Shown here: piece by piece, positions 39,944 through 46,972 of the stretch
How positions within the stretch are numbered: position 1 is the stretch's first letter
How the letters are laid out: each line of letters opens with the position of its first letter
DNA from: Halomonas sp. TA22
Lineage (GTDB): Bacteria; Pseudomonadota; Gammaproteobacteria; Pseudomonadales; Halomonadaceae
Reading direction: 5' to 3'
DNA length: 64,000 nt
NCBI RefSeq assembly: GCF_013009075.1
Contig: NZ_CP053108.1
Coordinates: 3,242,517 to 3,306,516 of the forward strand
The notes under the pieces: model-generated
Databases searched by the model: none
What the model was told of the DNA's origin: nothing
The model's input: the letters and a program-made list of their open reading frames with translations, nothing else
Made by a program: the position numbers and the translations under genes

Positions 39944-40354
39944 TCACTGCGTTGATTCTGGCCCAAAGGCAGCAACAGCAAAGTCCAGAAAACTACGCAG
40001 CTTGGGAGTGACACGTCGATCAGGAGCATACAGTACATGCATTGGCCGAGTAGGTGCTTCATATCCAGGTAGCAATCGCACCAGACGGCCCTCGGAAAGA
40101 GCGCTTCTGACCAGCTCATATGGTTGCAAAATAATGCCCATGCCCGCCAGGGCAGCACATAGCAAAGGTTCGCCATGGTCGACCATCAAGCGGCTGGACA
40201 CCGGTACTGACACTCGTCCATTCGGCCCATCGAAGGTCCAGAGATTACGCAGTTCAGTATGGGCAAAGCTCAAGCATTCATATTGTTGCAGATCCCATGG
40301 GCTAAGCAACGGTGGCCGTCCATCAAGATAACTTGGTGCACCACAAAGTACCAA
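39944..40354 (-). pseudogene. LysR regulator, C-terminal remnant
   Basis: A 136-codon frame matching only the effector-binding end of LysR proteins (AALAGMGIILQPYELVRSALSEGRLVRLLP; PKLRSFLDFAVAAFG). No helix-turn-helix is present; upstream lies a GATGAC tandem repeat and the next gene's promoter. It is therefore a 5'-truncated gene, probably the former regulator of the hydrolase gene. Confidence 0.75.
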
Positions 40355-40368
40355 GTGATGTCATCGCG

Positions 40369-40412
<44 letters not shown>

Positions 40413-40473
40413 GACGAGTAACAAGGCTCATTACTTTCAGAGAATCATCATCCGAGCCAGTGGAGGCAAGGAC

Positions 40474-41484
40474 ATGAAGCACATCATCCCCCCGGCTCTA
40501 TGCCAGCTTGCCGGCGCTATCTCAATTACATTGTTTTCACATCAAGGTATGGCCGCACCAGCGCTCGATGTGCTCGGTCGCGATTATACATTCCCGAACC
40601 AGATAGAAGGGATTCCTTCGATGCTATCCGACTTCAAGGATCTTGAGATCAATAGCTTCGATACCAGCGATGGCGTGTCGCTCTCTTATTGGGAAGCAGG
40701 CGAAGGCAGGCCGGTGATTTTTGTCCCTGCTTGGTCGGCGAGCGGTGCCGAGTATTTCAACGTATTGTATTTGCTAAGCAAGCAATATCATGTCTTTGTA
40801 CTCGACCCACGCAATCAAGGGCTATCCGATAACGTAGAGTACGGCGCACGCATCTCCCGGTTCGGCATGGATCTGAAAGAGTTTGTCGATCACTTAGACC
40901 TGACTAGGGCCGATTTCTGTGGGTGGTCGATGGGTGCCGCCGTTATATGGAGCTATATCGATCTTTTCGGCACTAAAGCCATTCGAAAGGCGTGTTTCGT
41001 CGATCAACCAATCTCCATTTATTCCCACTCCGATTGGTCCGAGCAGGAGCGTCTCGATGCCGGCGGCACAACGACGTCAGCGGAGCGCATGGTGGCTGGA
41101 GTGACTGAAGGGGCTAAGCTCAATAACTTGATCACTGATATGAAGCCGTGGGAGCGATTCGAAATTGAAGACTCGCCGTACTTCGCAAATTCGAAAGCTT
41201 TCGCGAAAGAGTTCATCGACAATGATCCGGAGGCGATCAGCCGCGTACTGTTCGATCATGTCATGAACGACTGGAGAGATGTTATCCGCCATAAGATCGA
41301 TATTCCAGTTGCTATTTTCTCAGGCGTTGAGAGCAACAATCTATCCAGCCAACGCTGGGCATCGTCGATAATTACGGACGCCTCTCTCTACAATTACAGC
41401 TCGGCTGAACATGGCGATCATTTCTTGATGTTCAAGAACCCTATCAAGTTCACTAATGACCTTTCGTCATTCTTGGAGCGCTGA
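40474..41484 (+). CDS. Exported alpha/beta hydrolase
   Basis: A 336-residue alpha/beta-fold hydrolase with a signal peptide (about 1-27, ending GMAAPA). The nucleophile elbow FCGWSMGAAV holds the catalytic Ser, RNQGLSDN follows the oxyanion strand, and SAEHGDHFLMF carries the likely catalytic His. GGAGGCAAG just upstream fixes the start at 40474; the frame extends upstream through the GATGAC repeat as poly-Asp but is unlikely to be translated. Substrate is unknown. Confidence 0.82.
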   Translation: MKHIIPPALCQLAGAISITLFSHQGMAAPALDVLGRDYTFPNQIEGIPSMLSDFKDLEINSFDTSDGVSLSYWEAGEGRPVIFVPAWSASGAEYFNVLYLLSKQYHVFVLDPRNQGLSDNVEYGARISRFGMDLKEFVDHLDLTRADFCGWSMGAAVIWSYIDLFGTKAIRKACFVDQPISIYSHSDWSEQERLDAGGTTTSAERMVAGVTEGAKLNNLITDMKPWERFEIEDSPYFANSKAFAKEFIDNDPEAISRVLFDHVMNDWRDVIRHKIDIPVAIFSGVESNNLSSQRWASSIITDASLYNYSSAEHGDHFLMFKNPIKFTNDLSSFLER

Positions 41485-42637: not shown

Positions 42638-43045
42638 CGATCCTCCTCGATGGCTCGGTTTGCAGGGACGTTACCATAGCCTAGCCCGTACTATCTCACC
42701 AGATGCCCGGCCCGAGTGTCACGATCGGCCCCGCCTTCTGGATGATCATCTAGCCAGTTCTGCCTAAGTTCATCAGACTTTCACTGACCCTCCCCCTGTT
42801 TCAAGGCCACCGAGCGCACCTTGAACTTGGCCGATAGGGAACAGCGCTGGGTAGAGGCACTCAGCGAGCAGATTCACCGTTTGATGACTACGCTTCGAAC
42901 ATTTCGACCGGCACGGCGATGCGGTCGGCTTCCATCGAGCGAGCAAATGCGACGCGCTTGATGGATGTCATGTCGTCACCGTCGCACCGAGCCTAGCATG
43001 AGGCTTTCCTCTATCCACCCTAGGTTCGTCATGCCAGGAGATGCG
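42638..43045. other. Intergenic region upstream of ubiT
   Basis: About 400 bases between divergent genes without a supported ORF. It contains an FNR/ANR-like site at 42958-42971. Confidence 0.35.
42958..42971. promoter_or_regulatory. FNR/ANR-like site upstream of ubiT
   Basis: TTGATGGATGTCAT differs from the consensus TTGATnnnnATCAA by the common G/A change and by one terminal base, and lies 75-88 bases before the ubiT start. Oxygen-dependent control is consistent with the role of UbiT. Confidence 0.5.
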
Positions 43046-43525
43046 ATGCCACCGTTCCCCTCCCTGCTGCTGCATCTTGCCCCGCCGGCACGGCTGATCA
43101 GTCTTCTCGATCCGTTGATGCCCCTGACCGTCAAGCGCTGTCTGATCGAGCCGCTGCTCAACCATGCCTTTGCCGAACCGCTGCGCGAGGGTGAATTCGA
43201 TGCTCTCGAGGGGCGGCGTATCACACTGGCCATCGACGATTTTGCGCTCGAGTTGACGCTGGGGCTCGAGCGCCAGCAACTGGTGCTATGCGATGCCGCG
43301 GGCGAGGCGACCATTCGTGGCGGCTGGCGCGAGTTCCTATGCCTGGCCACGCGTCGCGAGGACCCCGATAGTCTGTTCTTTCAGCGCCGCCTGTCGATCG
43401 AGGGCGATACCGAGCTTGGCTTGATGGTCAAGAACCTGCTGGATGGGCGCGAGGAGGGGCTGGCGGCTGGACCGTTCGGGGCATTACTGCTGCGCATCGA
43501 GAGCTGGGTGAACCGCACCCGATGA
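43046..43525 (+). CDS. ubiT: O2-independent ubiquinone biosynthesis accessory factor UbiT
   Basis: A 159-residue SCP2-domain lipid-binding protein. The opening hydrophobic segment LLLHLAPPARLISLLDPLMP and the SCP2 core (LEGRRITLAIDDF; ATIRGGWREFLCLATRREDPD; FFQRRLSIEGDTELGL) match UbiT/YhbT, which holds polyprenyl intermediates for ubiquinone synthesis without oxygen. AGGAG just before 43046 selects that ATG. Its partners UbiU and UbiV are broken nearby (46369-46972), so the pathway may be non-functional unless other copies exist. Confidence 0.88.
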   Translation: MPPFPSLLLHLAPPARLISLLDPLMPLTVKRCLIEPLLNHAFAEPLREGEFDALEGRRITLAIDDFALELTLGLERQQLVLCDAAGEATIRGGWREFLCLATRREDPDSLFFQRRLSIEGDTELGLMVKNLLDGREEGLAAGPFGALLLRIESWVNRTR

Positions 43526-43533
43526 GCTAAGGC

Positions 43534-44253
43534 TCATTGGCGCAGTTCGAGCCGCGAGAAGCTGGGGCTGAGCTTGGCCAGCAGGCGCTCCAGCTGACTC
43601 GTCAGTGGTGCCTCGGGAAGCGGCTGGCAGTAATCCGGATCCAGGCACTGTTCGCCTCTGGCGAGCTGAAGGAGGTAGTGGCGCACGCCGCAGTCGGCCA
43701 GTGTCTGCGCCAGGCGCTCCACCTCGCTCAGGCTGAAGTCGCGCCAGTGCACGGTGGTGCGGCACTCGAGATCGATGCCGCTGGCCAGCAGTATCTCGAG
43801 GCTCTGGGCGTGGCGACGCCAGGTGCCCGTCCGCCCGCCAATGCGATCGAAATCGAGACCCCGCCCCTTGACGTCCAGGCCGACCCAATCGAGGTGCTGC
43901 AGCAGCGGCGTGAGTCGCTTAGGGTAGGGACCTGCGGTATGCAACCCGACCTTGAAGCCCATCGCCTTGATCTCTCCCATTGCCTCGGCCAGGTCACCGT
44001 GCAGCGTTGGTTCGCCACCGCTGAACACCACGCCCTCCAGCAGGCCTCGACGCGTCTCGAGAAACTCCCTGACCTTCGTCCATTCACCGGGAGTGCCGCG
44101 GCGTGGGGCGATCATCTGCGGATTGTGGCAGTAGCCGCAGCGTAGCGGGCAGCCCTGGGTGAAGACCACGCAGGCCAGGTGCCCGGGGAAGTCCAGCGTA
44201 GTCATCGGGGTCAGGCCGGCAACGGGCAGGCGGATGTCGCGGTGTGGCGGCAT
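43534..44253 (-). CDS. nrdG: Anaerobic ribonucleotide reductase activating enzyme NrdG
   Basis: A 239-residue radical-SAM protein. The 4Fe-4S motif CxxxCxxC appears as CPLRCGYCHNPQ near residue 35, followed by VVFSGGEPTLHGDL. It uses SAM to make the glycyl radical on NrdD. GGGAG eight bases upstream fixes the start at 44253. It follows the 54-codon glycyl-radical ORF by 50 bases, in the order nrdD, radical-domain ORF, nrdG. It is convergent with ubiT, 8 bases apart. Confidence 0.92.
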   Translation of the reverse strand: MPPHRDIRLPVAGLTPMTTLDFPGHLACVVFTQGCPLRCGYCHNPQMIAPRRGTPGEWTKVREFLETRRGLLEGVVFSGGEPTLHGDLAEAMGEIKAMGFKVGLHTAGPYPKRLTPLLQHLDWVGLDVKGRGLDFDRIGGRTGTWRRHAQSLEILLASGIDLECRTTVHWRDFSLSEVERLAQTLADCGVRHYLLQLARGEQCLDPDYCQPLPEAPLTSQLERLLAKLSPSFSRLELRQ

Positions 44254-44303: not shown

Positions 44304-44468
44304 CTAGAGGCTGGCGGCCGCTTCGCTGAAGTGGCGTCGTTCGTGGTGTTCGGCGCGCTTGCCGAGATTGAACTGGCTGACCGGGCGGTGGTAGCCCATT
44401 ACGCGGGTCCACACCTCGCAGCGTTGGCGTTGTTCGCTCGGCAGGCTGTTGCGTTGGGAATGCGGCAT
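44304..44468 (-). CDS. Small protein with the NrdD glycyl-radical domain
   Basis: A 54-residue ORF between nrdD and nrdG. Residues 17-48 (CEVWTRVMGYHRPVSQFNLG then KRAEHHERRHF) match the C-terminal radical loop of class III ribonucleotide reductases, RVxGYxRPVxxxNxGK. Gly25 corresponds to the radical glycine. The preceding NrdD ends right after its zinc site, just where this segment would follow. A ribosome site (GAAGGAA) lies upstream. The ORF is in the same frame as nrdD but separated by two stops (TGA, TAA) and 27 bases. Confidence 0.75.
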   Translation of the reverse strand: MPHSQRNSLPSEQRQRCEVWTRVMGYHRPVSQFNLGKRAEHHERRHFSEAAASL

Positions 44469-44495
44469 GGCGTTTGATTCCTTCGATGGTTAGTG

Positions 44496-46235
44496 TCAGG
44501 CCGAGGCTTCGCTGGCCAGGGGGCGTCTTGCCAGCAGTGCATCGTCGCAGCGCGGGCAGAACTCATGTTCGCCTGCCAGGTAGCCGTGCACCGGGCAGAT
44601 CGAGAAGGTCGGAGTGATGGTGATGTAGGGCAGGCGGAAGCGCGATAGGGCAGTGCGTACCAGCGTCTTGCACGCCGCGGCGCTCGAGAGTCTTTCGCGC
44701 ATGTAGAGGTGCAGCACGGTGCCACCGGTATAGCGGGTCTGCAGCGGATCCTGATGGATCAGCACCTCGAAGGGGTCGTCGGTGTGCCCCACCGGCAGCT
44801 GGCTCGAATTGGTGTAGTAGGGCGCCTCACGAGTGCCGGCCTGGAGGATCGTCGGGTAGCGCTTGAGATCCTCCTTGGCGAAGCGGTAGGTGGTGCCTTC
44901 CGCCGGGGTAGCTTCCAGGTTGTAGAGATGACCGGTCTGTTTCTGGAATTCGCCGAGGCGTATGCGTACATGATCGAGCAGTGCCAGTGCCAGCCGCTGC
45001 CCTTCGGGGCTTGCGATGTCATGCCGGTCGGCGGTGAAGTTACGCACCATCTCGTTGAGGCCGTTGACCCCAAGCGTCGAGAAGTGATTGCGCAGCGTCC
45101 CCAGGTAGCGCTTGGTGTAGGGATAGAGCCCGGCATCCATCCACTGCTGAATCGCCGCGCGCTTGATCTCCAGGCTGTCGCGGCCAAGCGTCAGCAGCCG
45201 GTCGAGTTCGGCGAGCAGGCCAGCCTGGTCGCCGGCGAAGCGGTGGCCAAGTCGCGCGCAGTTGATCGTCACCACCCCCAGCGAGCCGGTCTGCTCGGCA
45301 CTGCCGAACAGGCCGTTGCCGCGCTTGAGCAGTTCCTTGAGGTCGAGCTGCAGCCGACAGCACATCGAGCGCACCATGTGCGGCTCCATGTCGGAATTGA
45401 GAAAGTTCTGAAAGTAGGGCAGGCCATACTTGGCGGTCAGCGCGAACAGCCGCTCGGCGTTGTCGCTCTCCCAATCGAAATCGTGGGTGATGTTGTAGGT
45501 GGGAATCGGAAAGGTGAAGACGCGTCCTTGGCGGTCGCCGGCCTCCATCACCTCCAGATAGGCGCGATTGAGCAGGTCCATCTCGCGCTGCAGCTCGCCA
45601 TAGGTGAAGGGCTGTTCGACTCCCCCGATCACCGGCACCTGATCGTGCAGGTCCGCCGGACACACCCAGTCGAAGGTGAGGTTGGTGAAGGGCGTCTGGC
45701 TGCCCCAGCGTGAGGGGACGTTGAGGTTGTAGATGAACTCCTGGATCGCCTGCTTGACCGCGGCATACTCCAATCCGTCACGCCGCACATAGGGTGCCAG
45801 ATAGGTGTCGAAGGAGCTGAAGGCCTGAGCGCCGGCCCACTCGTTCTGCAGCGTGCCGAGGAAGTTGACCATCTGCCCTAGCGCACTCGAGAGGTAGCGG
45901 GGCGGGGCGCTCTCGGCACGGTCGGGCACGCCATTGAAGCCCTCGTTCAGCAGGGTTCGTAGCGACCAGCCGGCACAGTAGCCGCACAGCATGTCGAGAT
46001 CGTGGATATGCAGATCGCCGTCGCGATGCGCCTCGCCGACCGCCACCGGATACACCTCATCGAGCCAGTAGTTGGCGATCAGCTTGCCCGAGACGTTGAG
46101 GATCAGCCCGCCCAGGGAGTAGCCCTGGTTGGCATTGGCATGCACTCGCCAGTCGGCTCGCTGCAGGTACTCCTCGAGGGTGGAGGCGACAGGAACATGG
46201 CGGGACGGCGCGGCGTCAGTACGGGAGAGCGTCAT
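44496..46235 (-). CDS. nrdD: Anaerobic ribonucleoside-triphosphate reductase large chain NrdD
   Basis: A 579-residue class III reductase without an ATP-cone. Conserved blocks are NANQGYSLGGLILNVSGK near residue 35, HIHDLDMLCGYCAGW near 75, SSALGQMVNFLGTLQNEWAG near 115, SQTPFTNLTFDW near 175 and TPTFSICPVHGYLAGEHEFC at the end. The last has the cysteines of the C-terminal zinc site. The usual continuation with the glycyl-radical loop is missing and is encoded by the next ORF. AGGA before ATG 46235 serves as the ribosome site and overlaps a possible NrdR box. Confidence 0.9.
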   Translation of the reverse strand: MTLSRTDAAPSRHVPVASTLEEYLQRADWRVHANANQGYSLGGLILNVSGKLIANYWLDEVYPVAVGEAHRDGDLHIHDLDMLCGYCAGWSLRTLLNEGFNGVPDRAESAPPRYLSSALGQMVNFLGTLQNEWAGAQAFSSFDTYLAPYVRRDGLEYAAVKQAIQEFIYNLNVPSRWGSQTPFTNLTFDWVCPADLHDQVPVIGGVEQPFTYGELQREMDLLNRAYLEVMEAGDRQGRVFTFPIPTYNITHDFDWESDNAERLFALTAKYGLPYFQNFLNSDMEPHMVRSMCCRLQLDLKELLKRGNGLFGSAEQTGSLGVVTINCARLGHRFAGDQAGLLAELDRLLTLGRDSLEIKRAAIQQWMDAGLYPYTKRYLGTLRNHFSTLGVNGLNEMVRNFTADRHDIASPEGQRLALALLDHVRIRLGEFQKQTGHLYNLEATPAEGTTYRFAKEDLKRYPTILQAGTREAPYYTNSSQLPVGHTDDPFEVLIHQDPLQTRYTGGTVLHLYMRERLSSAAACKTLVRTALSRFRLPYITITPTFSICPVHGYLAGEHEFCPRCDDALLARRPLASEASA

Positions 46236-46283: not shown

Positions 46284-46368
46284 CGGTCTAGCCTAATGGG
46301 CGCTGCCTGCTCCCGCCTTGATATATGTCATGCAATACGTTCGACAGAGCCATGGCGCGGCGTCCCGT

Positions 46369-46972
46369 TCACACGCTCGCCTGGAGATGCTCCATGCCCG
46401 GCCGGCCATGCCAGTAGCCGTCGCAAGCGCCGCGATCCACCAAGGCCAGCGGGTCCTGGGTGCTAGCCTGCCGTGGCGAGCCTGGTCGAAGGCGTTGACG
46501 ATCTCCGCCATGCCTTCGGCACGTGGGCTCAAGCGGGCTAGGGTGACGCCCATGCGCCGCATGGTGCCGATCTCGCGACGCAGGTCGTAGCAGGCGCCGG
46601 AGAGCGTCTGAATGCCATTGAGCGTGAACAGTTCGCAAGACTCCTGGGAGCGCAGGGCAAGCCCCTGGGGATAGCGCTGGCAGACGAACTGACAGCGGAC
46701 CTTGGGCAGGCCGTGATGGCGGCCTGATCCACCGCCTGGGTCCACTGCTGAAAGCCTGCGGGTTGCGGATAGGTATTGATGGCACACAGCACCCGCCGAC
46801 CGTGGGAATGGGCGTAATCGATGCCCTCGCGGGCGCGGCTGGCGGTGAAATTGAGCCCCGCGAACTGGCGAGCGTTGGTGATGTTCTGAAAGCCGAAATA
46901 GACCGCATCGGCCCCCTCGTCCACGGCACGCTTCAGTGCGGGCAGGTTACCTGCCGGGCATACCAGCTCCAT
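46369..46972 (-). pseudogene. Fused and frameshifted ubiU-ubiV remnant
   Basis: It begins as UbiU (U32 peptidase-like): MELVCPAGNLPALKRAVDEG and QFAGLNFTASRAREGIDYAHSHG, intact for about 85 codons from an ATG with GGGAGG upstream. Near 46700-46720 it changes frame into the C-terminal third of UbiV: CQFVCQRYPQGLALRSQES, FTLNGIQTLSG and VTLARLSPRAEG. A further shift leads to GACDGYWHGRPGMEHL. The middle of both genes is deleted. UbiUV hydroxylate ubiquinone precursors without oxygen, so this copy is non-functional. Confidence 0.8.

Follow-up and report, generated by a model that had tools for sequence, protein, structure and literature searches.

The window, that is, the whole 64,000-nucleotide stretch of Halomonas sp. 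TA22 DNA that was analysed, very probably encodes a class III (anaerobic) ribonucleotide reductase that is made of two chains and carries its radical on the smaller one. The catalytic core, NrdD, and a 54-residue protein with the glycyl-radical loop are encoded by two adjacent genes that are followed by the activase gene nrdG. No expression, binding, EPR or activity data are available, and the physical assembly of the two chains, the formation of the radical and the activity (ribonucleoside triphosphate reduction via a glycyl radical) are inferred. The features of the locus are as follows.

43534–44253, minus strand: nrdG, radical-SAM activase, 239 residues from the likely ATG at 44253.
44304–44468, minus strand: 54-residue predicted glycyl-radical subunit with the loop RVMGYHRPV and a match to the C-terminus of PF13597.
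44469–44498, minus strand: stop codon TGA of the core and a 27-base spacer (CAC TAA ...) that carries the AAGGA ribosome-binding site for the small gene.
44496–46235, minus strand: nrdD, the NrdD catalytic core, a 579-residue barrel chain with the stop codon TGA.
46318–46331, minus strand: candidate Anr/Dnr-type box ATGACATATATCAA, 96 bases upstream of the NrdD ATG.

The 579-residue ORF covers positions 2–531 of the 562-position PF13597 profile (profile search; E = 3.1e-167, 558.1 bits) and positions 98–649 of the 684 positions of NF006126 (1002.9 bits, with a cut-off of 548). These matches and a fold comparison with solved NrdD entries (Z values of 29.8 to 35.8) place an NrdD-type barrel in the core, one of the features by which its catalytic class was judged. 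The finger loop SMCCR occupies core residues 290–294, and M291, C292, C293 and R294 are invariant in all 10 aligned sequences, in agreement with the MCCR or MGCR motif that section 2.5 of PMC9669993 gives for the class III finger loop. The core also contains a zinc-type motif, CPVHGYLAGEHEFCPRC, formed by C547, H550, C560 and C563. The chain terminates 16 residues past the last cysteine of this motif, without a glycyl-radical loop, which confirms the statement of a first-pass annotation that NrdD stops just past its zinc-site cysteines. The core lacks the N-terminal extension (ATP-cone), and its NF006126 match starts only at position 98; this N-terminal part is kept in three split relatives (L005, L008 and L013). 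The box upstream of nrdD was spotted by eye, is not among the results of a pattern scan and is regarded as a candidate Anr/Dnr-type site only by its resemblance to the published box of Pseudomonas aeruginosa nrdD.

In the reading frame of the core, the TGA stop codon is followed by CAC, TAA and then the small ORF (GCCTGACACTAACCATCGAAGGAATCAAACGCCATG), with AAGGA preceding the ATG of the latter. The 54-residue protein contains RCEVWTRVMGYHRPV and matches PF13597 positions 531–562 (E = 2.3e-8, 33.6 bits, cut-off 26.2). Gly25 is its predicted radical site, and Cys17 is conserved. The nrdG product, whose ORF opens mechanically at 44412 and for which the likely ATG at 44253 was taken as the start, matches TIGR02495 (199.4 bits, cut-off 131.15) and lies downstream of the small gene. 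The loop RVMGYHRPV is thus found in an ORF next to the core with nrdG behind it, and the arrangement described in the first-pass annotation (a radical loop on a small ORF of its own, with its own ribosome site, in frame past two stops and before nrdG) is borne out in every element. A single-chain NrdD is not supported at this locus, where two ORFs are parted by TGA and TAA and give two separate PF13597 matches. These two are the only PF13597 matches in the whole genome (3.73 Mb, one contig), so no second intact copy of nrdD was found. The small-protein sequence has no PDB match at E values up to 0.01. The split is not a chance arrangement, since the two pieces together span PF13597 from one end to the other and all 80 relatives examined have the split too.

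To model the enzyme, the two window pieces were joined by an artificial linker and folded by AlphaFold2 as a single read-through chain, using 43 relatives in the alignment (17 of 20 read-through sequences, 11 fused phage sequences and 15 of 58 core-only sequences). The model has a mean pLDDT of 82.9 and a pTM of 0.84. The small protein corresponds to model residues 590–643, with block means of pLDDT of 66 (residues 591–600), 79–90 (residues 601–640) and 60 for the terminal block; confidence is low around the finger loop, where residues 291–310 have block means of 61 and 51. VIA-align returned Z scores of 35.8 to Streptococcus thermophilus NrdD (9d3x_B) and 34.9 to T4 NrdD (1h7b), with both pieces aligned. 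In the 1h7b alignment, model residues 37–621 are aligned with chain residues 26–587, and residue 621 is paired with residue 587; model residue 614, which is Gly25 of the small protein, therefore falls on T4 residue 580 if that end is gapless. T4 Gly580 is the radical residue according to the RNRdb paper (PMC2795772). The docking and the radical site are inferred from homology and modelling, and the docking is not independently predicted, because a single chain with an artificial linker was folded and fused homologues were included in the alignment.

The solved single-chain NrdDs (T4, Thermotoga maritima, Prevotella copri and S. thermophilus) resemble the window enzyme in their barrel, finger-loop cysteines, RVxGY-type loop and NrdG partner, and similarity to all four was found for the core at the sequence level and for the model at the fold level. 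The window enzyme differs from them in having the radical loop on a separate 54-residue chain and in lacking the ATP-cone. In the P. copri NrdD paper (PMC11226230), the zinc site is counted within the glycyl radical domain. The gene break thus falls within this domain, leaving the zinc half on the core and the radical half free.

The split was compared across the 80 best named loci of 569 confirmed in GTDB genomes, which had been selected by similarity to split cores, and nrdD is split in all 80. The first stop is TGA in 63, TAA in 10 and TAG in 7; the small gene is out of frame with the core at 58 loci and in frame with it at 22; and the distance from the stop to the radical motif ranges from 31 to 318 bases (median 105). 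For the small gene, an ATG with a Shine–Dalgarno-like site in range is present at 80/80 loci compared with 108 of 1477 ATGs inside cores, a generous contrast, because each locus is represented by the best of its several ATGs. At 77 loci, a radical-SAM motif is found behind the small gene. In the 81 sequences comprising the 80 loci and the window, RVMGYHRP and the cysteine five residues upstream are invariant, and the conserved block has an in-frame pN/pS ratio of 0.236, compared with 1.73 and 1.68 in the other frames. The small gene is under purifying selection. In one genome (G698; L332, G698:C4:21500-35500), the core and the small gene lie ~9 kb apart, and the small gene remains together with nrdG. 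In Cupriavidus necator, Bradyrhizobium and Sulfuricurvum, the small gene lies between the core and nrdG and overlaps the annotated nrdG start.

The first-pass annotation had guessed that relatives might share the split and had called for a search for it; the guess was right and even understated. Its further proposal, that the enzyme is assembled from two chains, is supported as the best-fitting reading by a core without the loop, a small gene under purifying selection, the other frame in 58/80, the ~9 kb separation in G698 and viral records that hold the small gene alone, with the physical assembly itself inferred. Recent damage, in which a nonsense mutation or a sequencing error cut one nrdD in this strain, would fit the shared frame with two in-frame stops between the pieces and an adjoining ubiU/ubiV region that appears decayed, but it is scarcely credible when all 80 relatives are split by different stops, frames and spacers and when the small ORF has an ATG and a ribosome-like site in every one of them and is under purifying selection. 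Stop-codon read-through or recoding (e.g. TGA as selenocysteine), which would produce one long chain, could draw on the common frame in the window and in 22/80 relatives and on TGA as the commonest first stop (63/80), but it can practically be discounted, as the frame differs in 58/80, the stop is TAA or TAG in 17/80, the window would need passage of both TGA and TAA, and the G698 pieces are ~9 kb apart. Damage, sequencing error and read-through were rejected on the 80/80 split, the frames, the pN/pS ratios and the ribosome-like sites.

The split nrdD is spread over a wider range of bacteria. Among 58 genomes of relatives, 13 have an NrdD match, 10 of which are split (the source genome counted) and three continuous. 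At the level of the order, a match is present in 57 of 390 genomes, of which 32 are split (27 give two separate matches, and five a single match across an internal stop), 18 are continuous and of the E. coli type, and seven are continuous and of another type. These types were read from the match rows; the five internal-stop cases, and four cases whose two pieces had been assigned to a single open frame, were checked on the sequence, and all proved to be split. In a phylum sample, 16 of 398 genomes exceed the NF006126 cut-off, of which 13 are split and three fused (G439, G517 and G759). In the genus of Pseudomonas nitroreducens, the core is present in 14 of 25 genomes and split in all 14. Cases on plasmids include split genes in C. 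necator H16, C. metallidurans, Bradyrhizobium ottawaense, Paracoccus denitrificans and Sulfuricurvum kujiense (Campylobacterota) and fused genes in Actinomyces oris and Acidiphilium cryptum, and subfamily members that have a fused chain and the same loop do exist. In a tree built without four rows (L232, L256, L258 and L270), the branches are long and the forks open, the seven fused rows are scattered (four changes, at least two of them forced), and a single origin of the split is not resolved. The tree neighbours of the window NrdD point to a probable place in the Halomonadaceae.

Both pieces are already in databases under nearly one name, as the NCBI annotation calls the small gene 'nrdD, anaerobic ribonucleoside-triphosphate reductase' in several genomes, beside 'ribonucleoside triphosphate reductase' for the core. 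For C. metallidurans, NrdDG is given as Rmet_5137 and Rmet_5139, with one tag skipped, in PMC2864759. In genome G827, the core has 675 residues, a 48-residue radical ORF is separate, and TTGACGCAGATCAA lies exactly 98 bases upstream of the NrdD start. The same box has been reported at 98 bases before the NrdD start of P. aeruginosa nrdD (PMC5645315), from which we infer that G827 is P. aeruginosa and hence that P. aeruginosa NrdD is split.

The C. necator H16 core has 676 residues and a mass of 76,191 Da, and its residue 650 is the glycine of the zinc-type motif CPTHGYL. The radical motif of this strain is in the separate 66-residue protein WP_011154154.1, in which Gly36 is the predicted radical glycine. 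Siedow et al. reportedly described, in 1999, a 76.2-kDa C. necator NrdD and took G650 as the radical site because a G650A variant was inactive. If this account is right, the G650A mutation hit the zinc-type motif.

A 20-kb contig of a same-order metagenome-assembled genome (L131, G126:C163:14500-18800) carries a split NrdD with in-frame TGA codons. Nine TGAs in its core were aligned with 10 relatives; five correspond to glycine in 10/10, one in 9/10 and three to other residues. Three TGAs are found in its small gene, one of which corresponds to the radical glycine (10/10) and two of which are not in glycine columns. Judged from these codons, the contig looks like a mis-binned piece of a lineage that reads UGA as glycine, which we take to be Gracilibacteria or Absconditabacteria, and the split would then extend to that lineage. 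G126 is counted among the 32 split genomes of the order.

The small radical gene was also found apart from the core in viral contigs. An IMG/VR search with an alignment of the small protein yielded 174 confirmed contigs, and the best 80 were kept. In 79 of these 80 loci, neither a core nor nrdG is present in the flanks examined, which are short in some. A whole-record search of 40 of the 80 found the small radical gene only in 39 and a core as well in one (L146); the records are up to 212 kb long, and viral records may be fragments. ORFs were read by motif at 78 of the 80 loci (L201 and L203 were missed), giving 77 stop-free blocks and 59 distinct sequences. The radical glycine is kept in 59/59 and the cysteine in 56/59 of these distinct sequences, whose pN/pS ratio is 0.254 in frame and 1.55 and 1.74 in the other frames. 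Other viral contigs do have cores, several of them fused and some with a separate small gene (L253, L255, L261 and L280).

The gene neighbourhood was scanned gene by gene against PHROGs at seven viral loci, with few ORFs each, and packaging or tail genes are near the small gene at four of the seven. The small gene lies between terminase and portal genes in L164 and among tail-fibre genes in L186, with a tape-measure gene ~2 kb on in L147 and a portal-like gene ~2 kb on in L187; replication genes are nearby in L149 and L211. Three ORFs scanned from L220 and several ORFs from L147 had no PHROG match. Among the 86 and 115 picked ORFs of two neighbour batches are integrases and helicases as well as terminases, portals and tape-measure proteins. 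The window protein matches phrog_4132, a family of unknown function in PHROGs version 4, as do five viral small proteins.

Among isolate phages (INPHARED, 50,697 records), a tblastn search with the window protein gave two weak matches, and searches with two orphan types as queries gave three and nine weak matches, none of them a clear orphan copy; the annotated INPHARED matches are all within genes named as NrdD. No orphan copy was detected in the 19 phylum genomes with a match (398 searched), and of the 57 matching genomes in the order (390 searched), only one, G235, has such a copy. Orphan copies were thus seen here only in IMG/VR contigs and in a phage-like region of G235, a genome with a single-chain NrdD and no split core. 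The G235 copy (L130, G235:C1:17500-22000) is an orphan radical ORF whose Cys-rich N-terminal part resembles that of L143; because this part and the radical loop do not share a frame, the copy may be decayed. As G235 has no split core and its orphan copy is apparently frame-disrupted, the cognate core of the phage subunits is not shown.

Several viral radical proteins (L143, L147, L148, L153, L154, L180, L181 and L197) have an additional Cys/His segment at the N-terminus (PCxH...C...DC..C-like), perhaps a zinc module of their own. In L257–L274, fused phage NrdDs are of another type, and many have a C-terminal APTLVV-like, thioredoxin-like extension after the radical domain.

On the strength of homology, it is highly likely that the core, the small subunit and NrdG together form the enzyme. 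The proposed two-chain enzyme would work as follows. The 579-residue core would provide the barrel, the thiyl-radical finger loop and the zinc motif, and the 54-residue chain would provide the glycyl-radical loop and dock into the barrel opening. NrdG would put the radical on Gly25, which would pass it to the finger-loop cysteine. The oxygen-sensitive part would in this case be a small replaceable subunit, and after O2 cleavage at the glycine, a fresh 54-residue chain could restore the core. Phages may bring only the small subunit, load it onto the host core and keep dNTPs flowing. That the subunit is replaced after O2 damage and that phages use a host core are hypotheses only, on which the evidence is evenly poised.

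The hypothesis of replacement would draw support from the stand-alone viral gene, the G698 separation and the precedent of YfiD and Y06I. YfiD/GrcA of E. coli and Y06I of phage T4 are likewise small free glycyl-radical proteins that complete a large chain without one. Both are spare parts for pyruvate formate-lyase (PFL), one from a bacterium and one from a phage (PMC8683613; T4 vs.6, PMC1524935), and they are the only two validated spare parts, with others regarded as possible (PMC8683613). In contrast to the window core, which never has the domain, intact PFL has the domain that GrcA duplicates, and GrcA acts after damage. The comparison with YfiD/GrcA made in the first-pass annotation is therefore apt for a possible way of working and fails as to family: the 54-residue protein is not a GrcA protein, as its only Pfam match at E values up to 1 is the NrdD C-terminus (PF13597) and not a PFL-type domain.

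The phage step has a rival of its own, in which the orphan proteins do not donate a radical and instead act as decoys or inhibitors by occupying the host core or NrdG. Small inhibitors are often encoded by phages as a matter of general knowledge, and G235 has an orphan copy without a split core, but the radical loop, including its glycine, is kept in 59/59 distinct viral sequences and is not obviously needed by an inhibitor, so that this reading is unlikely. A stronger rival concerns the replacement step only. The two chains may form the enzyme without any repair role for the split, which would be a neutral fission kept by translational coupling or a means of stoichiometric control. The sequence alone gives no reason for the persistence of the split, some relatives have the same loop on a fused chain, and in 77/80 loci a radical-SAM motif comes after the small gene; nevertheless, the stand-alone viral copies suggest a use of the small part in trans. 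This possibility is a serious one, held tentatively. Returning to the replacement hypothesis, viral contigs with the small piece alone suggest that this piece is an exchangeable part. In its broadest form, which could prove right or wrong with equal ease, the hypothesis is that much of the Pseudomonadota, with a member of the Campylobacterota and the UGA=Gly lineage, would have a permanent two-chain NrdD whose radical subunit of ~50–80 residues is swapped after oxygen exposure, and that a broad set of phages would encode only this subunit as an auxiliary gene, reviving or boosting host dNTP synthesis in anaerobic infection.

If true, this would be the first case of a spare part serving a glycyl-radical enzyme besides PFL, and the question of spare parts beyond PFL, left open in PMC8683613, becomes testable with the split NrdD. 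The nrdDG operon would really consist of core, radical subunit and activase, and work on this enzyme in denitrifiers such as Cupriavidus and Pseudomonas would need to cover the third protein, which the usual operon name omits. A function would also be suggested for phrog_4132, a phage family labelled unknown.

Divided ribonucleotide reductases of other kinds have been described. Like the window enzyme, class II NrdJa/NrdJb of P. aeruginosa is a ribonucleotide reductase in two polypeptides (PMC4860495 and PMC9669993), but it belongs to another, B12-dependent class; the window core scores as NrdD. In PMC3653736, phage ribonucleotide reductase genes are split by introns, inteins and homing endonucleases, with nrdD the commonest (six cases) and the phage phiAS4 nrdD in three pieces, and split ribonucleotide reductase genes in some organisms are mentioned. 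These cases share with the present one that nrdD is divided in phage genomes; they are described as interruptions of one gene, whereas the small subunit is an old stand-alone gene, and the viral contigs mostly lack a core. No split NrdD or NrdD-type orphan radical protein appears in titles or the beginnings of abstracts among the matches listed from the open-licence literature, outside which most subscription journals fall, and the word 'split' is absent from the main text of the RNRdb paper (PMC2795772).

Other features of the window were also noted. The ubiU/ubiV region (oxygen-independent ubiquinone synthesis; window positions 46293–46972, minus strand) has apparently collapsed into a remnant, in which one ORF matches UbiU 1–87 and an overlapping ORF matches UbiV 177–266. 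The ubiT gene at 42965–43525 (plus strand) is above its cut-off. An ORF at 40312–41484 (plus strand) has ~14 aspartates in a run within its N-terminal part, followed by hydrolase-like sequence.
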